Shown: positions 40,091 through 49,054 of the stretch, one piece after another
How the letters are laid out: each line of letters opens with the position of its first letter
Numbering within the stretch: position 1 is the first letter of the stretch
Assembly (NCBI GenBank): GCA_027451745.1
Contig: DAIDIP010000005.1
Coordinates: forward strand, 1 to 61,504
Direction of reading: 5' to 3'
Length of the DNA: 61,504 nt
From: Candidatus Melainabacteria bacterium
GTDB taxonomy: Bacteria; Cyanobacteriota; Vampirovibrionia; Obscuribacterales; Obscuribacteraceae
Program-made: the position numbers and the translations under genes
The notes under the pieces: model-generated
The model's input: the letters and a program-made list of their open reading frames with translations, nothing else
Database searches by the model: none
Told to the model about the DNA's origin: nothing

Positions 40091-41152
40091 TTAACTTATA
40101 TCTGCAATTTGTCTACTGTGGTCTGAACACAAACAACAGTGTCTTAAGACTGCAGTCAAATCGAGTACATTAACTTTTAAACCATTGCCCCAGTATAATA
40201 TAGAACAAATTATTCCATAGCAAGAAGCATGTCCAAAAAACTCTTCAACACCAAATACTAGTGTTGTTGCTGAAAAAATTACTAGCAAAAGAACAACCGC
40301 AAGCCTAGGAAAATATCCCAGAAAAATACATATGCCTAGAAATAACTCAGCCAGTCCCGAGACTAAGACAAACATTTCATTACTACAGCCCACAATACGC
40401 AATAAGTTTAACGACGGTACATACTGTAATAAATTCATAGCCAATTGTGGGTTAAGTAATTTTTCGTCCAAAGCCAATATAATTAATCCTAAACCCATTG
40501 TCCATCGCACTATAGAATGAGCCATAGGTATTGCTGGTAACATGCTAAACCTATCAATTGAATAGAAATAATCGAGTGAATACTTATTGCGTCCAGCAAT
40601 TATAAAATAAAGAGCCAAACCCACTAAAGGCAAGGCGTCTAAACATTCAAGCATCCCATGTTTGCAAACAGCCATATACATAAGTGCTAAGACCGCCACA
40701 CCACTCAGTCGACTAAATAGTCCTAAAATTAACAGTGCGCCAACAATAATCTCTGCTGCGGGTAACCATTGGGGACAATGGGAACAAATTACAAAATTTG
40801 GCACTAATAATGTACGTGTTATTCCACAGTAAATTAAAGACACACCTAAACCGATAGCCATAAATAAATTTATACTGGCTTCTTTTTTCTTTGCCCAAAA
40901 CACTAATTTTCTATGAATAACCGAATTACTAAACTTTTCATTGAGCAAATGAATAAAAAACAGCAAGGACATAGTCATACTTATTGGTAATATATTGCCA
41001 ACACTCAAATGCGTAAACAAATTCGGCTTTGCTTGCTTCAATAATTCGCTTTCAGGTCGATTGAAGAACCATTTAACATGTGCTGATGCCGGGCTTATCG
41101 CAAAAAGCCACGCACTTAAGACAAGCTTATTTATAATTGCAAAAGTACGCAT
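40091..41152 (-). CDS. DoxX-like integral membrane protein with signal peptide
   Basis: The 353-residue protein starts with a signal-like segment ending SPASAHVKWFF and then has about eight membrane helices in two similar halves. GLGLIILALDEKLLNP and GLAELFLGICIFLGYFPRLAVVLLLVIFSATTLVFG match the DoxX/SURF4-type pattern, and SRLSGVAVLALMYMAVCKHG is the corresponding first-half segment. The function is unknown; DoxX-like proteins are found with respiratory or redox systems. It is the next gene after the hydrogenase-related operon on the same strand (82-bp gap), possibly co-transcribed. The ATG at 41152 has GGA 8 nt upstream, inside a hairpin (41157-41188). Confidence 0.65.
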   Translation of the reverse strand: MRTFAIINKLVLSAWLFAISPASAHVKWFFNRPESELLKQAKPNLFTHLSVGNILPISMTMSLLFFIHLLNEKFSNSVIHRKLVFWAKKKEASINLFMAIGLGVSLIYCGITRTLLVPNFVICSHCPQWLPAAEIIVGALLILGLFSRLSGVAVLALMYMAVCKHGMLECLDALPLVGLALYFIIAGRNKYSLDYFYSIDRFSMLPAIPMAHSIVRWTMGLGLIILALDEKLLNPQLAMNLLQYVPSLNLLRIVGCSNEMFVLVSGLAELFLGICIFLGYFPRLAVVLLLVIFSATTLVFGVEEFFGHASCYGIICSILYWGNGLKVNVLDLTAVLRHCCLCSDHSRQIADIS

Positions 41153-41156
41153 GATC

Positions 41157-41188
41157 AAATTCCAATTTCATCCTATGAAATCGAATTT
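41157..41188 (-). promoter_or_regulatory. hairpin over the ribosome site of the DoxX-like gene
   Basis: AAATTC-CA-ATTTCAT-CCT-ATGAAAT-C-GAATTT: 7-bp and 6-bp stems separated by a small internal loop, ending 4 nt before the start codon on the minus strand. The outer stem (GAATTT on the minus strand) overlaps the likely ribosome site and could limit translation. Confidence 0.4.
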
Positions 41189-41233: not shown

Positions 41234-42025
41234 TTAACTTTGTACTTTACCCATGCCGAGTAAAATACCATGGATAATGCTCCAGGGATGCGGTGGACAA
41301 CCAGGTATATAAACGGATACCGGTAAAATTTTATCTACACCATTAGCCTCTGCATAACCATTTTTATGTACGCCGCCTGTAATTGAACAGGAGCCTGCAG
41401 CCACAACAATTTTTGGTTCAGGCATAGCTGCATAACAGCGTAAAAGCGAGTCGCGCATACCTTTACCAACTGGTCCGGTTACAAGCAATACATCTGCAAA
41501 GCGTGGGGAGGCAACTATATGTACACCAAAACGCTCCAAATCAAAAACAGGATTACCGCATGCGCCTATTTCTAAGTCACAAGCGCTACACCCAGTCGAG
41601 ACTACTCGAACATGCAACGATCTACCAAATATATTTCTGATCTTATTTTTCACATCAGCTTCATAGCTACGTTTTAACGAATTAGCTAAAACACTTTCAT
41701 GATTAGTCAAGATCAAATCGTCACGTTGCTTCTTAGCCAATCTAGTTGAACGATTACGAACAATAGTGCCAGTTGGACAAATATCAATACATAGCTGACA
41801 ACCAATACATGCCCCTAAATCCAGACTTACTCGCCCCACGCCATCTTCATTGCTTACTTCAATGGCATCCGTTGGACATGCAGTTGCACATTCGTTACAA
41901 CCAGTGCCAGAACAAGAGTTTTCAGTCAACGCAGGCATGCCGTCAGCATCTTCTTCTAGCGGCGGACATGGATTAGCCACCGTTGCAATACCATTTCGAA
42001 AAATGTAAGAGAGAATTTTAAGCAT
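41234..42025 (-). CDS. hyfI: ferredoxin-fused small subunit of a hydrogenase-related (Hyf/Ehr-type) complex
   Basis: The 263-residue protein fuses two modules that are separate subunits in E. coli Hyf/Hyc. Residues about 30-95 are a two-cluster ferredoxin: C-x4-C-x2-C-x3-CP (CSGTGCNECATACP) and a standard C-x2-C-x2-C-x3-CP (CIGCQLCIDICP). Residues about 130-263 are the NuoB/HyfI-like small subunit with STGCSACDLEIGAC, AAGSCSITGGV and YIPGCPPHPW, which supply the four Cys of the proximal [4Fe-4S] cluster (N2 equivalent). It would pass electrons to the large subunit at the membrane interface. It is the last gene of the operon, 8 bp after the large subunit. Confidence 0.85.
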   Translation of the reverse strand: MLKILSYIFRNGIATVANPCPPLEEDADGMPALTENSCSGTGCNECATACPTDAIEVSNEDGVGRVSLDLGACIGCQLCIDICPTGTIVRNRSTRLAKKQRDDLILTNHESVLANSLKRSYEADVKNKIRNIFGRSLHVRVVSTGCSACDLEIGACGNPVFDLERFGVHIVASPRFADVLLVTGPVGKGMRDSLLRCYAAMPEPKIVVAAGSCSITGGVHKNGYAEANGVDKILPVSVYIPGCPPHPWSIIHGILLGMGKVQS

Positions 42026-42033
42026 ATTATTCC

Positions 42034-43587
42034 TTACAAATCATTGCCGCTGTATGAAAGTGCCAGACTTTTATTGCAAAGCGGAAAATCAGCAATCAAA
42101 TTATTGCGAATAGCAATTGATATCGCTGTCCAATTATTGAAACTAGGATCTTTTATTGCATACCTTTTAATAGCACCTTTGCCATCAGTAAATAGTAGAT
42201 GAATTAGTTCTCCTCTGAATGCCTCTACAACAGCTAATCCAGTCTGATTTGCTGGTAAATCATTAGACAACTTAATAATATGCTCAGAACCAGTAATGCT
42301 TTGCAAAACACTTTCAATAACATCAGTACTTCTTCTAATTTCAGCAATTCTTACTCGTGTGCGCGCTAGGATATCACCACCCTTCTGCAAAGCAATAGGT
42401 GGAGCAATTTTTGGATATAGTCCATGAGGGAAATGTTGTCTGCAATCGTAGCTTATGCCACACGCACGCGCTGTCACACCAACAACACCGAACTCCTCGG
42501 CCAAAGATTTGCTTATAACGCCTATCTTTTCAGCACGCTCACGTGCTGCCTGATTTTCTGCCAACAATTCGAACAATTCATCCAATTCTTTTCGTAAATC
42601 TTGCATATTTTTTTGCATACTAGCAATGTGCTGATGAGCAAATTTACGCACCCCACCTGGCAAGATGAATCCTCGCATAAATCGTGAGCCTGTAAGCATT
42701 TGTCCCATTCTAAGCGCTTTGCCTCTGAGACACCCGGCTGCTGCTGCTCCTGCCGAAAAGCCAATATCTCCACAAAGTCCACCCACATCAATAATATGCA
42801 TGGCTAACCTTTCGATTTCTAACGCAACTGTACGTAGAGCTTGGGCAACTGCTGGTATTTCCAAATCAAATAAAGATTCAATAGCTATAGCATGTGCCAA
42901 TGCATTTGCACAGGCAGTATCAGTACTTGCCGCTTCCGCCACAAAACTCGCTTTTCGCCAGTGAATTTCTGTTAGACGTTTTTCTACTCCCCTATGTGTA
43001 TACCCTAAACGGATTTCCAGATTCAAAATAGTCTCGCCAAAACAATTGAAGCGAAAATGTCCTGGCTCTATAACACCTGCATGAATTGGCCCGACGGGCA
43101 ATTCATAAATTCCCTCCCCACGTACTTGCAAAAATTTGTATTCTCTTTTAGCGCCAGTAGAAACAAATTTTTCTTGCGAAAGAGTTTCGCTCAATATCGG
43201 AGTTTTCTTTCTATTATCAGTTTTATCCCCCACTTTCCCCATTTCTTGCCAATTAAGGGGGTGAAAAGTCGGCTCATATTCGTCGTGCAATAAAATATGC
43301 TTCAAGCGTGGATGTTGGTCAGGCACAATTCCAAACAAGTCATAGATTGATCTTTCAAACCAATGACTTTGAGGAATTAAAGTCGTCAGAGTTTTATATG
43401 TATTGTCACTAACTTCGCTTATCCAACACTCCGCTGCACTTGCTTTTGGATCAAGAACCAATGTGACAAGCTGCTTTCCATCTATCGATGTCAGCAGACC
43501 GAAACGTGCCCCTGTCCTGGCATGTAGCCAATCTTTAATTGTGTTAGCCAAGCCCAATATGTTCACGTCTTTTACTACTGGTTTCAT
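42034..43587 (-). CDS. hyfG: large subunit (NuoC-NuoD fusion) of a hydrogenase-related complex, Ni-Fe site lost
   Basis: The protein (517 residues from ATG 43587) joins a NuoC-like domain (WFERSIYDLFGIVPDQHPRL) to a NuoD/HycE-like domain (GPIHAGVIEPGHFRFNCFGE, RLGYTHRGVEKRL). In group-4 [NiFe] hydrogenases the metal is held by CGIC and DPCxxC. Here the aligned positions read STDT (about residues 221-224) and DPSFNN (about 480-485), so all four Cys ligands are missing and it cannot hold Ni-Fe. The ending FPLCNKSLALSYSGNDL is typical of hydrogenase-related (Ehr-type) complexes. The ATG overlaps the hyfF stop (ATGA) with GGAG 9 nt upstream. Confidence 0.85.
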   Translation of the reverse strand: MKPVVKDVNILGLANTIKDWLHARTGARFGLLTSIDGKQLVTLVLDPKASAAECWISEVSDNTYKTLTTLIPQSHWFERSIYDLFGIVPDQHPRLKHILLHDEYEPTFHPLNWQEMGKVGDKTDNRKKTPILSETLSQEKFVSTGAKREYKFLQVRGEGIYELPVGPIHAGVIEPGHFRFNCFGETILNLEIRLGYTHRGVEKRLTEIHWRKASFVAEAASTDTACANALAHAIAIESLFDLEIPAVAQALRTVALEIERLAMHIIDVGGLCGDIGFSAGAAAAGCLRGKALRMGQMLTGSRFMRGFILPGGVRKFAHQHIASMQKNMQDLRKELDELFELLAENQAARERAEKIGVISKSLAEEFGVVGVTARACGISYDCRQHFPHGLYPKIAPPIALQKGGDILARTRVRIAEIRRSTDVIESVLQSITGSEHIIKLSNDLPANQTGLAVVEAFRGELIHLLFTDGKGAIKRYAIKDPSFNNWTAISIAIRNNLIADFPLCNKSLALSYSGNDL

Positions 43588-45041
43588 TTGATAAAACTCC
43601 AATAGCTAGGGAATATAACCAGACCAAGAATAACTGAGCAGCATAATAAAATAATCGGCACCACACTTGTTTGAAATACTTTGAATGCCTGAAAGTCTGT
43701 CTTCGCTCCGCCAAACAACACTCGTCCTACATGTACGCTAAGGGACATAAAGGCCAGCGAAGTAGCAAACAATAAAATACCAATTAAGATCCAACTGCCA
43801 CGATCAGCAAGCACAGCCAATATAGATATTTTACTTAAAAAAGTACCAAAGGGCGGAGCCCCAGTTATGGCAAAGAGTCCCAGTGTGAGCAAACATCCCC
43901 AAGCCGGACACGACTTCAATATGCCATGCAAGTTATATAGCTTTTTAGAGCCACCTGCATGAACAATATTTCCACTCAGTAAGAACAAAGCTACTTTGAC
44001 TATACTGTGATTAATAGCCTGAAGAAAGAACAATGCTGCTGAACCCAAACCTATTGCCACTAGCATAATGCCAACATTTTCAATACTAGAATAAGCCCAC
44101 ATTCTCTTAAATCCATGCTGCCGAATAAGAAATAGTGCAGCAGCCAACACAGTAATAGCGCCCATACCCAAGAGTATCTGCATAATTTGGTTGTGAAAAT
44201 GTGAGCCCATAATAATCTGTGTTATTCGCCAGATCCCAAATAAAGCCCCATTCAGTAATGCGCCAGAAAGTATTGCTGAAGCAGGAGCTGGTGCTTCTGA
44301 ATGGGCATCAGGCAACCAGCTATGCAACGGAAAGATCCCTGCTTTCGTTCCATAGCCCAAAAGGCAAAGAATAAAACCAAAACGCATCAAAGGATAATCT
44401 AATTTATCTGCTTGCGAAATGAGATCAGTTATTATTAAAGTCCCTTGCTCGAGATGTCCATGCTGGCTAGCAGCAAAAATAAATACCGTTCCCAGCAACG
44501 CTAAAGCAATACCGACACTGCATACAATTAGATATTTCCAAGTTGCTTCCAAAGCATTTTTGGTACGCTCAAAATAAACCAGCGGCGCCGAAGATAAAGT
44601 CGTTGCTTCAATACTCATCCATAAACAACCTAGATTATTTGATACAAAAATCGAACACATCGAAAGAAAAAAAAGATTAATGCACAAATAAAAAGTCTTC
44701 AGTCGTACACTCTTTAAGGTTCCATGCTCGTCAGTTTCTTCTTGTCCAAATAAAAAATCGGCATGTGTCAAAGCAGCAGCAAAAACAAAAGCGGTTAACA
44801 ATAAAAAGCAAACTGCTAACCTATCTATCCTAAAATTTTCATTAATAACTAATCCCTGTGTTTGTCCCATTAATATCGGCCAAAAAATACAACCTATTAT
44901 TAGGGCTTCTACCCAATAAGCAGCAGCAGTAATTTTGCGAGTAAACGCAATAATAGGATTGACGTAACTGAATATCGCCAAAATTACTGGCAAGCTAACA
45001 ATCGAAACAAGGTCTAGAAAAATATCTGCTGATACTGCCAT
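43584..45041 (-). CDS. hyfF: antiporter-like membrane subunit HyfF (NuoN/M-type)
   Basis: The 485-residue membrane protein has about 14 helices and resembles Mrp/NuoL-M-N antiporter-like subunits: WMSIEATTLSSAPLVYF (conserved TM5 Glu), LCLLGYGTKAGIFPLHSWLPDAHSEAPAPASAILSG (TM7 Lys region), KRMWAYSSIENVGIMLVAIG and NHSIVKVALFLLSGNIVH. These Glu/Lys/His residues form the proton path in complex I relatives. It is one of two antiporter-like subunits in this operon. It lies 2 bp after hyfE. Confidence 0.9.
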   Translation of the reverse strand: MAVSADIFLDLVSIVSLPVILAIFSYVNPIIAFTRKITAAAYWVEALIIGCIFWPILMGQTQGLVINENFRIDRLAVCFLLLTAFVFAAALTHADFLFGQEETDEHGTLKSVRLKTFYLCINLFFLSMCSIFVSNNLGCLWMSIEATTLSSAPLVYFERTKNALEATWKYLIVCSVGIALALLGTVFIFAASQHGHLEQGTLIITDLISQADKLDYPLMRFGFILCLLGYGTKAGIFPLHSWLPDAHSEAPAPASAILSGALLNGALFGIWRITQIIMGSHFHNQIMQILLGMGAITVLAAALFLIRQHGFKRMWAYSSIENVGIMLVAIGLGSAALFFLQAINHSIVKVALFLLSGNIVHAGGSKKLYNLHGILKSCPAWGCLLTLGLFAITGAPPFGTFLSKISILAVLADRGSWILIGILLFATSLAFMSLSVHVGRVLFGGAKTDFQAFKVFQTSVVPIILLCCSVILGLVIFPSYWSFIK

Positions 45042-45043
45042 TT

Positions 45044-45694
45044 TTACTCCCGTAGATTAGTTAGCCGGGAAACATCTATATGCTCAAAGCTCTTCTTAAT
45101 TCTAAAGACAACTAGTCCGAAGATCATAACCACTACCAATACTTCAAGCAATAATCCCATTTCTATAATGAGTGGCATACCATGAGTTTGCGTAAGAGCA
45201 AAAAGATAGATTCCATTTTCTAGAACAAGAAAACCAATAATTTGTCCAATAGCAATTTTTCGCGACAACATTAGAAGTACACCAGTAAAAAATACTGACA
45301 TAGCTGCCATAGCCCCGATTCTACTATCAATATCACCCCATAAGCTCGAAAGCTGCACAGACAATAAATAGCTTGCACCCAACATACCAATACCTGTCAG
45401 CATGGCAACCGGAGCAGGTATAAAGGACCCTGAATCTGACTCAACATCAATATTTCGTATAACCCACGCTAAATACCGTGGAATAATTACTACTTTTAGC
45501 AAAGCAATAAAAAATGCAACCCAATAAAGATGTTCGTCATGAATTTTTTGCGCCATCCATGCTGTCTCCATTGCTATAGCCAGCGTGTGCAGGGCATAAA
45601 AATTCAAATTAGCACGCAAATACATAGTGCCTAGCATCAATATTGCTAACACCGCTGATGAAATAGCCAGGATTGAAAATGTATCCAGAATCAT
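45044..45694 (-). CDS. hyfE: membrane subunit HyfE (NuoK-related)
   Basis: The 216-residue protein has six or seven membrane segments: an N-terminal part with its own helices (residues 1-75) and a NuoK-like C-terminal part, IGQIIGFLVLENGIYLFALTQTHGMPLIIEMGLLLEVLVVVMIFGLVVFRI, with buried Glu residues as in HyfE. It is thought to form part of the membrane arm linking the antiporter subunits. It lies 7 bp after hyfC. Confidence 0.88.
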   Translation of the reverse strand: MILDTFSILAISSAVLAILMLGTMYLRANLNFYALHTLAIAMETAWMAQKIHDEHLYWVAFFIALLKVVIIPRYLAWVIRNIDVESDSGSFIPAPVAMLTGIGMLGASYLLSVQLSSLWGDIDSRIGAMAAMSVFFTGVLLMLSRKIAIGQIIGFLVLENGIYLFALTQTHGMPLIIEMGLLLEVLVVVMIFGLVVFRIKKSFEHIDVSRLTNLRE

Positions 45695-45701
45695 GATTTT
45701 C

Positions 45702-46640
45702 TCAGCCTCTCATCACTGCTATCAATACACAAAAAAGTCCCATCGCTACGGCAAAAGCAATAAATTGCGGCAATTTAGTCCAGCGCAATTTTACTAACGT
45801 ACCTTCAATTATTGCCACAATAACTCCCATGCAAAAAAGCGCCCCAAGACTTAGCGCGCCTTGAATTAGAGGACCTACCGTCCAAAAGTATGATATTGAG
45901 CGGAGAAAACACTGTGCTGCAATGCCCCATAATATGCACATTTTTAAATAGTGCGTAAATAACACTAGAGCTAAATTAGGTCCCGAATTTTCCAGAATCA
46001 TAGCTTCATGAACCATAGTAAGTTCTAAGTGCGTTGTTGGATCATCTACTGGCATACGTGACAATTCAACCAAACTAGACAAAAACAAGCCAAGCCCAGC
46101 CATCAGCCAAAGAGCATTATTGTGGCTCAGACTAAAATTATCACAAGAAAAAATCACGCTAAGATCGCTGGTTCTTGCCACACAAGCAAGCGAAGCAAAA
46201 CAAAATATTACTGCTGGCTCCACTAGCATAGCCATTGTCACTTCGCGACTAGCACCAAAACCACTAAAAGCTGAACCAGCATCAAGTGCTGCCAATACAG
46301 TAAAAAATCTAGTTAAAGCAAACATATAAATGACTAGTATTAGGTCTGCGCCCACAAAAGCTGGTTTAAAAGTTAGCCAGGGCACAAGTAAGGCAACCAC
46401 TATCACTACTGCAAAGTTTATTGCAGCAGCATTCCTAAATATCCAACTTGTTACTTCGCTAACTGTTTCACCTTTACTAAACAACTTATACAAATCGAAA
46501 TAAGGTTGAAAAATAGAAGCTCCAATTCTATTTTGCAAGCGTGCTTTTGTTTTACACAAAACACCGAGTACCAGTGGCGGCAAAATAAACACCACCGCCA
46601 CAAAAGAAATCCATTCAAAAATAGCCATGCTAATTTTCAC
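45702..46640 (-). CDS. hyfC: membrane anchor subunit HyfC (NuoH-like)
   Basis: The 312-residue protein has about eight helices and the NuoH/HyfC signature: LLRKAR-type loop replaced by CKTKARLQNRIGASIFQPYFDLYKLFSKGE (contacts the small and large subunits), DAGSAFSGFGASREVTMAMLVEPAVIF (conserved acidic helix) and MPVDDPTTHLELTMVHEAMIL. This subunit joins the redox module to the proton-pumping arm. The GTG at 46640 shares a base with the hyfB stop (TAGTG); the ATG at 46628 is an alternative. Confidence 0.9.
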   Translation of the reverse strand: MKISMAIFEWISFVAVVFILPPLVLGVLCKTKARLQNRIGASIFQPYFDLYKLFSKGETVSEVTSWIFRNAAAINFAVVIVVALLVPWLTFKPAFVGADLILVIYMFALTRFFTVLAALDAGSAFSGFGASREVTMAMLVEPAVIFCFASLACVARTSDLSVIFSCDNFSLSHNNALWLMAGLGLFLSSLVELSRMPVDDPTTHLELTMVHEAMILENSGPNLALVLFTHYLKMCILWGIAAQCFLRSISYFWTVGPLIQGALSLGALFCMGVIVAIIEGTLVKLRWTKLPQFIAFAVAMGLFCVLIAVMRG

Positions 46641-48643
46641 TATAATCTGATACCTATCCCAATCAAAACTAGTAATGTCATAAACACATACAATAGGTAC
46701 AAATGAATGCTGCCTGTTTGAAGTTTTGCTATTGCTCTGCTGAGAATCAATATTACTCTCATAGATGGTCTATAAATCAGCCCCTCTAGCAAAGGTGATG
46801 TTATGCTCTCAAATTTGATTATCTCTGGAAAATGTCTGCGATCTTTTCCTTGTATCTCCGTAATCATGCGATACCGCAAAATTGGCGCAAATATCCGGGC
46901 TATAGACTCCGAAAAACTAGTACCTGTTTCTTCTGCTCTAGCTGGTAAATTTCCATAACCACAATCCCATGTAACATACTTCTTCAAGCCAGTATCCGGA
47001 CGTTTGGCTAAATAAAATAAGAACCAAACAGCAAAGCACGTAATTGCCACAGCTATACAAGTTACCGTTTGCAAAGGAACAGGAAATAGATTGTGGACTT
47101 GCTCAACCTTTGGTAATACTTCACAGCAAGCAGGCCATAGTAATGATGCTACATAAGGCACTGTCAATCCCATAGCCAAACAAATAACAACAAAAAATAT
47201 TTGCACGACCACAGCTGAATGCGATAGTTCATTAGCTTGATTGATCATTTCTGACCGAGGACGTCCCAGGAAACATATGCCAATAGCTTTGGTATAACAA
47301 GCAAGCGATAATGTTCCTACTAAAGACAAAATACCGACTATACTGAGACCCGATATCCGATCAATAACTTGCGCGTCAGACATGGTTAATTTAAATAGAC
47401 TTTGATATACCATCCATTTACTAGCAAAGCCATTAAATGGTGGTAGCGCCGTTATGGCCAAACTATTAGCCAAAAAGCATGCCGCAGTCCAAGGCATTCT
47501 TCTAGCCAGTCCGCCTAAAAATGCTAAATCACGCGTATGCGTTACTGCTTCAATACAACCTGCCCCCACAAACAATCCGGCCTTACAAAGACTGTGGTTA
47601 ATTGTATGGAATAGAGCAGCAACTAAAGCTAAATAAGCGAGGTCAATTTGTTTGTCGTGTCTCGCTACCAAGCATACACCTAAAGCTATAAGGATAATGC
47701 CAATATTCTCTACACTGCTATAAGAAAGCAATCTTTTTAAATCTCGCTCTAATAAAGCAAATAATGATCCCCAAATAATAGAAACTGTCCCTAATGTAAT
47801 AGCTATATAGCCAAGAACGAGTCCATCATTATTATCTAAAATGAGCAAACGAATAAAAGTATATAGACCAACTACTTTCATCACTGTACTCATAAAAGCA
47901 GTCACCGGAGAAGGTGCTTCCGCTTGAGCATAAGACATCCAAATATGGAAAGGCCAAACCCCTGCTTTTACTGCTAAACCAAAAAACAAGAGCAGGGCCG
48001 GAAAAGTAATCGATCCAGCAGCATGCCAATCAGCAAAATACCAGCTATGAAAGTGTCGATAATACCAAAGGAAAGAAGCAAATATTAAAACAGTCGAAAT
48101 AGTAGTGATCCCCATATATATAAGGGCCGCATGCCGCGCTTTTTGTCTTATGTGATCTGAAGCAATTAGAGCCATCGCAGCTAAAGACATTGTTTCCCAA
48201 AATATCAAAAAGCAAATAGCATTAGTACTCAATAAAGTTAGGGTCAAAGCCAACATAAACATAAAAATGCAATGCCAATAAATACCCGGATGCAATCTAT
48301 CTTTATAAGCTTTTAGATAGGCCGGCGAAAAAATAGCAAGAGCACAAACAACTAGAGCAACTATAGTAAGGAAAAAACAAGCCAAAGTGTCGATGCGTAT
48401 AGTTAATGGTGCAATCGCAAAGTAACAACAGGGTAAAAGATTGAATGAAATAGCCTTCTGCTGGTAAGAAAAAAATGCCCCTATGCCAATAAAAAAGCTG
48501 CCCATGAAGAGTAAAAACGAAAAGAAAGTATGTTTTGCTCTTTCCGCTGTTAAAAAAACAACTAACGCTGCCGCTACCCACACACCTAGACCATAGCCAA
48601 TTGCTAGGGTGCAAGGAGGAACCATTTCTGGATTAAACGACAT
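46640..48643 (-). CDS. hyfB: antiporter-like membrane subunit HyfB (NuoL-type)
   Basis: The 667-residue protein is the first gene of the operon. It has about 16 helices with FLIFWETMSLAAMALIA (TM5 Glu), FFGLAVKAGVWPFHIWMSYAQAEAPSPVTAFMSTVMKVVGLY (TM7 Lys and the broken helix), ERDLKRLLSYSSVENIGIIL and FHTINHSLCKAGLFVGAGCIEAVTHTRDLAFLGGLARRMP. The longer C-terminal part is as in HyfB/HycC. With HyfF it gives two proton-translocating units; a HyfD homologue is absent. The upstream 411 bp hold the divergent promoter region and a 14-bp palindrome. Confidence 0.92.
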   Translation of the reverse strand: MSFNPEMVPPCTLAIGYGLGVWVAAALVVFLTAERAKHTFFSFLLFMGSFFIGIGAFFSYQQKAISFNLLPCCYFAIAPLTIRIDTLACFFLTIVALVVCALAIFSPAYLKAYKDRLHPGIYWHCIFMFMLALTLTLLSTNAICFLIFWETMSLAAMALIASDHIRQKARHAALIYMGITTISTVLIFASFLWYYRHFHSWYFADWHAAGSITFPALLLFFGLAVKAGVWPFHIWMSYAQAEAPSPVTAFMSTVMKVVGLYTFIRLLILDNNDGLVLGYIAITLGTVSIIWGSLFALLERDLKRLLSYSSVENIGIILIALGVCLVARHDKQIDLAYLALVAALFHTINHSLCKAGLFVGAGCIEAVTHTRDLAFLGGLARRMPWTAACFLANSLAITALPPFNGFASKWMVYQSLFKLTMSDAQVIDRISGLSIVGILSLVGTLSLACYTKAIGICFLGRPRSEMINQANELSHSAVVVQIFFVVICLAMGLTVPYVASLLWPACCEVLPKVEQVHNLFPVPLQTVTCIAVAITCFAVWFLFYLAKRPDTGLKKYVTWDCGYGNLPARAEETGTSFSESIARIFAPILRYRMITEIQGKDRRHFPEIIKFESITSPLLEGLIYRPSMRVILILSRAIAKLQTGSIHLYLLYVFMTLLVLIGIGIRL

Positions 48644-48792
48644 ATGGTTAGATAACTATTTTTTTGCTAGATGCAAAAATTATGTGCCTATTTTTGGAAA
48701 AAGCATTGAATGCTAATCACATGTATCATTAAAAGAGTTAAACGAGTTAGTTTAAAGAGCCTATTTAAGACACATAGGGTAGCAAACAAGGT

Positions 48793-48806
48793 TCACAATA
48801 TTGTGA
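48793..48806. promoter_or_regulatory. perfect 14-bp palindrome TCACAATATTGTGA in the hyf/pur divergent region
   Basis: It lies 150 bp upstream of hyfB and 249 bp upstream of purF. It looks like a dimeric regulator site. It differs from Rex (TTGTGA-N6-TCACAA) and CRP/FNR sites in half-site order or spacing, so no regulator can be named. The remaining sequence of 48644-49054 shows no gene except two short leader-like frames near purF. Confidence 0.5.
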
Positions 48807-49014
48807 TCTTATAGGGCTTGCCCGCAACAATTGTCACTTATATCCACTTCCCTAATCGACCCCACAGATAAATAAGGCAACTATATACTGCCAAAAACGC
48901 CCATTCAACGGCAATAAAACTTATCAGCGCTTTACATTTAAAGAACTTAGTTTCTTACGGAGCTATTACCAATAAGAATGTCTGGATTTTTTTCCACTAC
49001 AGGTGAATAATTAT

Positions 49015-49044
49015 ATGGTGCAACCGATTAACGTCACTTGGTGA
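49015..49044 (+). other. 9-codon leader-like ORF before purF
   Basis: ATG GTG CAA CCG... gives MVQPINVTW and ends in TGA, 10 nt before the purF ATG. AGGTG lies 9 nt upstream. It may couple translation to purF, or be chance. Confidence 0.2.
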
Positions 49045-49054
49045 ACTCCTAATT

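Follow-up and report, generated by a model that had tools for sequence, protein, structure and literature searches.

We analysed a six-gene operon in Candidatus Melainabacteria bacterium (assembly GCA_027451745.1) that encodes a membrane complex of the energy-converting-hydrogenase-related (Ehr) type. All positions refer to the window, which is the whole stretch of DNA analysed (61,504 nucleotides, positions 1 to 61,504 of contig DAIDIP010000005.1). The operon runs along the minus strand from 48643 to 41234 and consists of six tightly packed or overlapping open reading frames (ORFs), with every gap in the ORF map being 8 bases or less. Genes were assigned by Pfam and NCBIfam profile matches on the ORFs of the window. 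In operon order, and all on the minus strand, they encode a HyfB-like antiporter subunit (46640..48643, 667 amino acids; PF00361 1.3e-47, NCBIfam hydrogenase 4 subunit B 1e-141), a HyfC/NuoH-like membrane subunit (45702..46640, 312 amino acids; PF00146 1.8e-32), a HyfE-like membrane subunit (45044..45694, 216 amino acids; NCBIfam hydrogenase 4 membrane subunit 7e-20), a HyfF-like antiporter subunit (43584..45041, 485 amino acids; PF00361 2.4e-50, hydrogenase 4 subunit F 1.3e-90), a large subunit in which NuoC (30 kDa) and NuoD/HyfG (49 kDa) are fused (42034..43602, 522 amino acids; PF00329 and PF00346, best PDB match HycE 7z0s_E at 1.7e-56) and a small subunit with an N-terminal 2x[4Fe-4S] ferredoxin domain and a C-terminal NuoB/HyfI-like domain (41234..42025, 263 amino acids; PF01058 4.2e-29, Fer4_7 2.1e-9). 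The profile matches on these same-strand ORFs cover every module of the complete hyf-like membrane complex that a first-pass annotation of this DNA had described, and the antiporter-, NuoH- and HyfE-like membrane subunits share one cluster with the large and small subunits, as expected of Ehr.

The start of the large subunit is probably the ATG at 43587, which gives 517 amino acids, because this ATG overlaps the HyfF stop codon in an ATGA at 43587-43584; the listed TTG start (522 amino acids) would then lie 5 codons too early. Upstream of hyfB, the intergenic region shared with a divergent purF-like gene (48644..49054) is the presumed promoter region of the operon. Promoter and terminator scans of the locus returned matches that were no commoner than in shuffled sequence. 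The operon is followed, after 75 bases, by a gene for a DoxX/DoxD-like membrane protein (40091-41158, also on the minus strand).

Ehr complexes without CxxC motifs have been described in Geobacter sulfurreducens (GSU0739-45; PMC7894505), in comammox Nitrospira (PMC10284858) and in ammonia-oxidising archaea (PMC10432482), and Ehr was reported in Melainabacteria, Margulisbacteria and Saganbacteria from four representative genomes (PMC6349859). Compared by description, the published complexes and the one in the window both have antiporter-like and HyfE-like subunits together with large and small subunits akin to those of group 4 hydrogenases, and both lack the Ni-Fe ligands. The window complex differs in that its small subunit carries a fused ferredoxin, in that no FdhA is found in its genome, and in that anion permeases recur beside operons homologous to it. 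In a tree with HycE, HyfG and NuoD, which contains few references and long branches, the window Ehr branches with the group 4 hydrogenases and not inside complex I. The Ehr label of the first-pass annotation is thus borne out by the missing ligands, by the gene set and by the placement with group 4.

The emptied Ni-Fe site

The ligand sites were located by aligning the large subunit with HycE and HyfG of Escherichia coli. At L1, the CGIC of these hydrogenases is replaced by STDT (residues 226-229; 42916..42927, minus strand), as had been noted from the letters. The L2 site is ALSYSGNDL (residues 514-522; 42037..42063, minus strand), which forms the exact C-terminus and replaces DPCYSCTDR of HycE, with SLDPCYSCTDR of HycE pairing with SLALSYSGNDL of the window protein. 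DPSFNN (residues 485-490; 42133..42150, minus strand) is a conserved motif that pairs with AATYAN of HycE and lies upstream of L2, which rules it out as the counterpart of DPCxxC that it had been taken for. The first reading thus misplaced one of its two motifs, but its claim that the ligands are missing stands, with none of the four ligand cysteines being present at L1 or L2 in the alignment. The C-terminal extension that is cleaved in the maturation of HycE and HyfG is also absent, as the window protein stops at L2. The large subunit is predicted to be unable to bind Ni-Fe because no ligand cysteine is left at either site.

The replaced positions are themselves conserved. An alignment of 28 large subunits from several phyla has 58 invariant columns, which suggests strong constraint on the protein. 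Among these relatives D228 of L1 is invariant, as are N510, K511, S512, L515, Y517, G519 and D521 around L2 and D485, P486, S487, N490 and W491 of the upstream motif. In a wider set a few sequences differ, among them one from Gastranaerophilales at position D228, and many Gastranaerophilales sequences keep the first L1 cysteine. About 100 more loci, spread over several phyla, share both the gene order and the modified motifs, which rules out chance, and the replacement of the Ni-Fe ligands by conserved substitutes is not random. An AlphaFold2 model of the large subunit was of high overall confidence, with a predicted template-modelling score (pTM) of 0.85, and its best fold match was again HycE (7z0s_E). 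HycE is therefore the best match in both sequence and fold, and the subunit types are those of E. coli hydrogenase-4 and formate hydrogenlyase (Hyf and Hyc; 7z0s). The window complex differs from these in lacking CGIC, DPCxxC, the C-terminal tail and HyfA, in having HyfH fused to HyfI, and in having two antiporter-like subunits whereas Hyf has three.

The presence of maturation genes was evaluated both across Ehr carriers and in the genome of the window (3.0 Mb, 96.5% complete). HypD is missing from 20 Ehr-carrying Gastranaerophilales-like genomes (family f5) that are 98-99% complete, and two Ehr carriers of the window's own family, G006 (91% complete) and G019 (93% complete), are also without it. 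No Ni-Fe(CN)2CO site is known to form without HypD. Since these Ehr carriers lack this protein, the Ehr complex is predicted to contain no such site, and the family is independent of HypD.

The genome-wide check for hypABCDEF that the first-pass annotation had proposed did recover hypF, hypC, hypD and hypE. They lie together on contig 2 (locus L143, 1-20000), beside a hoxE-F-U-Y-H cluster that also contains a maturation protease, so that no full maturation set stands near the Ehr operon. These names rest on sequence features, position and Pfam matches for HypD, HoxH and HoxF. HoxH is the only other [NiFe]-type large subunit of the genome, and the Hox enzyme is apparently its sole [NiFe] hydrogenase. 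Because this hydrogenase adjoins the hyp genes, their presence in the genome is explained, and they are ruled out as a sign of a hydrogenase at the Ehr locus.

Iron-sulfur chain, pump residues and electron donors

The iron-sulfur cysteines of the small subunit were compared with those of 136 homologues. The proximal-cluster cysteines 146, 149, 213 and 243 are kept in about 125 of the 137 sequences. The ferredoxin domain contains eight cysteines (38, 43, 46, 50, 73, 76, 79 and 83) for two [4Fe-4S] clusters, which are conserved in most homologues, although some members of the wider family have lost the first cluster. All 12 cysteines are thus retained in the window protein and mostly conserved elsewhere, and the chain appears intact, not decayed. 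In order to assess the pump residues, we scored conservation over about 90 homologues. E150, K226 and K303 of HyfB are conserved in at least 99% of them, E145, K233 and K349 of HyfF in at least 97%, and E141, E206 and E212 of HyfC are invariant.

Complex I and the cyanobacterial NDH-1 have a homologous core in which the pump residues are likewise conserved. The window complex differs from them in that the CxxC of its small subunit is of the hydrogenase type and not the vicinal CC of NuoB, and in having no NuoA, no NADH module and no quinone tyrosine of NuoD. A search for other complex I genes, which had also been proposed, found one further NuoD-type protein in the genome, within a nuoA-B-C-D-H-I-J-K cluster on contig 10 (locus L144, 78001-98000). 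As in cyanobacterial NDH-1, no nuoEFG adjoins this cluster.

As for electron donors, PF00384 (FdhA/NuoG, molybdopterin oxidoreductase) has no match in the genome, and PF01512 (NuoF/HoxF) has a single match, the HoxF of the hox cluster. No NuoEFG or molybdenum-dependent donor module for Ehr was found in this genome. There are two POR-gamma matches, which indicate a supply of reduced ferredoxin from putative ferredoxin-reducing enzymes. A UbiA-family prenyltransferase occurs in nearly all genomes and so barely discriminates for quinone dependence.

Proposed electron path and rival explanations

We consider it about an even chance that the locus encodes a redox-driven membrane ion pump which derives from an ancestor of the hydrogenase-4/formate-hydrogenlyase type and has lost the hydrogenase chemistry. 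In the path that we infer, the donor would be a low-potential soluble carrier, most likely ferredoxin reduced by 2-oxoacid:ferredoxin oxidoreductases. The first-pass annotation had also pointed to ferredoxin, which is plausible given the intact iron-sulfur chain and the fusion of a ferredoxin to the small subunit. The fused domain, with its two [4Fe-4S] clusters, would take up the electrons and hand them to the proximal [4Fe-4S] cluster of the small subunit, from where they would reach a small non-proton acceptor (quinone-like or another small molecule) in the former Ni-Fe pocket, which may now be lined by the conserved L1 aspartate and the CNKS-xLSYxGxDL C-terminus. The energy would be passed via HyfC and HyfE to HyfF and HyfB, which would move H+ or Na+.

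The neighbours of Ehr operons in other genomes may bear on the acceptor. In 8 Obscuribacterales loci the operon has a SulP permease close by, at about 240 bases or less from hyfB in several of them, and 10 loci of Ignavibacteria, Bacteroidota, Omnitrophota and Auribacterota have a co-directional SulP-(HTH-EIIA2)-hyfB series, where HTH stands for helix-turn-helix (SulP loci are L118, L119, L122, L136, L090, L095, L069, L072 and others). Most of 17 Gastranaerophilales loci have a formate/nitrite transporter (FNT) gene that points away from hyfB (L060-L108), and a GPR1/FUN34/YaaH protein flanks the operons of a sister group of Ehr, f7, that is described below (L184, L192). Regulators of the ArsR type occur in 23 loci; they have no conserved cysteine pair, which rules them out as persulfide sensors. 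The window itself has no SulP, FNT, YaaH or ArsR neighbour. As raw neighbour counts, the recurrent permeases are a lead and not proof that a small anion matters to Ehr, and they give a testable hint at the substrate. In Omnitrophota, Bacteroidota/Ignavibacteriota and Spirochaetota, a fusion of an apparent, excisionase-like HTH domain with a phosphotransferase system (PTS) EIIA-2 domain stands directly upstream of hyfB (L095:4174-4848 and homologues), and is probably a regulator of the operon.

Several observations weigh against a simple path from ferredoxin to an acceptor in the pocket. The recurrent anion transporters fall outside such a model. The position of the quinone-site tyrosine of NuoD is Thr, Ser or Gly in aligned Ehr sequences. 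With the subunit modelled alone, the pocket loops were poorly modelled, above all the C-terminal L2 region, at a predicted local distance difference test score (pLDDT) below 50; we propose no pocket ligand from the model because these loops are of low confidence. Moreover, the complex I of contig 10 could already transfer electrons from ferredoxin to quinone, and because this NuoEFG-less complex is already in the genome, a further one for that task calls for a different explanation.

The f7 group consists of seven genomes of the same class, 94-98% complete (G048, G372, G053, G058, G376, G403 and G291; loci L184, L191 and L192-L196), which have the same six genes in the same order and are sister to all Ehr in the tree. 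In a mirror image of the loss in Ehr, their large subunit keeps four cysteines (CGMC, and LCY[AS]C at the exact C-terminus, as in LCYACVDR) within an Ehr-like frame, LVNKSFN, and their small subunit has lost both the ferredoxin domain and the proximal ligands (NAEE for NGCE, and PG[ND]PP for PGCPP). No HypD was found in the seven genomes, and no ORF with a CxxCxxCxxxC motif in the fetched loci. The predicted f7 complex cannot be a normal hydrogenase, and its four-cysteine site may bind another metal. We know of no description of this variant in the open-access literature that was searched.

Among the other explanations, one which we regard as possible though unlikely is that Ehr works with a small anion, be it bicarbonate/CO2, formate, acetate or a sulfur oxyanion, which is either bound or converted in the emptied pocket or taken up by a neighbouring permease that the pump energises, somewhat like the cyanobacterial NDH-1 variants that are coupled to CO2 hydration. 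The SulP, FNT and YaaH permeases that recur beside Ehr-type operons would fit this, but they belong to three unrelated families, none is adjacent in the window, and the intact iron-sulfur chain favours a real redox reaction. A more specific version seems distinctly doubtful. Here the pocket would be the binding or reaction site for a permease-supplied anion (bicarbonate, formate, acetate or a sulfur oxyanion), Ehr would be a redox-energised anion handler and not a chain to quinone, and f7 would be its extreme form, with the iron-sulfur wire lost and the four-cysteine site kept. The ion-pumping, ferredoxin-oxidising MBH and MBS/MBX complexes of Pyrococcus belong to the same superfamily. MBS is a Ni-free member, which speaks for a sulfane-sulfur reductase that uses ferredoxin electrons to reduce polysulfide at the proximal cluster, as does the DoxX/DoxD-like gene just downstream in the window. 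We nevertheless consider this improbable. The large subunit scores 195 bits with HycE, 128 bits with MBH and 112 bits with MBS (6u8y_L), and the membrane module of MBH and MBS differs from that of Ehr. The neighbouring ArsR regulators lack the cysteine pair, and the DoxX gene, having no homologue near any other Ehr locus, is ruled out as a partner.

An Ehr complex fed by formate dehydrogenase was proposed for Riflemargulisbacteria and Saganbacteria, with the authors calling the proposal questionable in one genome (PMC6349859), and more Ehr protein was found in formate-grown Geobacter sulfurreducens (PMC7894505). Although this published association and the FNT beside Ehr in Gastranaerophilales favour it, such feeding seems very improbable as an account of the window complex. 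The absence of PF00384 means that its genome has no FdhA, and the sole PF01512 match is a HoxF beside hoxH, so that the set of FdhA with NuoE/NuoF-like proteins is missing. Another Ehr carrier, G051 (99% complete), is also without PF00384. For the organism of the window, formate dehydrogenase as a partner is thus largely refuted. Loss of the catalytic metal site might also suggest a decaying and non-functional hydrogenase relic, which we find scarcely plausible, given six intact frames and the conservation over several phyla of the replacement motifs, the pump residues and the iron-sulfur cysteines. Even less credible is a genuine group 4 [NiFe] hydrogenase with unusual ligands. The genome does contain hyp genes, but these are found with hox on a different contig. 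HypD is missing from at least 20 Ehr genomes, and the large subunit has neither the L1 and L2 cysteines nor a C-terminal extension.

Distribution and descent

We searched 386 genomes sampled from the phylum with a profile for the Ehr family. The profile matched 66 of them (7 being f7), and it matched 0 of the 182 sampled photosynthetic members, i.e. those with photosystem reaction-centre genes. In the window's own family Ehr is present in 33 of 36 genomes, and a second family of the order has it in 3 of 3. The same gene order was found in Armatimonadota, Omnitrophota, Bacteroidota/Ignavibacteriota, Spirochaetota, Verrucomicrobiota, Lentisphaerota and Auribacterota. In the tree, the Ehr of the window's order (Obscuribacterales) stands beside Armatimonadota/UBP13, that of Gastranaerophilales beside Spirochaetota and Bacteroidota, and that of families f11 and f27 beside Omnitrophota; the deep root of this tree is uncertain, because its outgroup branches are long and it contains few references for hydrogenases and complex I. 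The approximately unbiased (AU) test rejected a single Ehr clade for the phylum (p 9.3e-61). With long branches removed, it also rejected monophyly of the Ehr from the two Melainabacteria orders (p 6.4e-50). The scatter of the phylum's Ehr over three parts of the tree, together with these rejections, makes horizontal transfer the best explanation for its presence in these Cyanobacteriota lineages, in place of inheritance from a pump of the cyanobacterial ancestor. The suggestion that the complex is ancestral in Cyanobacteriota, made in the first-pass annotation, is contradicted by this result and by the lack of Ehr in the photosynthetic genomes, and the Ehr of non-photosynthetic members is not readable as an ancestral trait of the phylum.

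Ehr bears on how complex I arose from hydrogenases. Ehr complexes were already known, including in Melainabacteria (PMC6349859), and the family is widespread. Our analysis adds the corrected L2, the conserved replacement motifs, the independence of HypD, the absence of FdhA from the window's own genome, a phylogeny that rejects vertical descent within the phylum, the recurrence of permeases beside the operons, and the f7 variant. An account of Ehr is constrained by complete loss of Ni-Fe, by independence of maturation, by replacement motifs that are conserved and can be mutated, and by formate dehydrogenase not being required in the window's own organism.

Copy number also varies among Ehr carriers. 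Some Omnitrophota loci have adjacent duplicate Ehr operons, and some Obscuribacterales have two copies per genome (L063, L067, L068; G032, G028).

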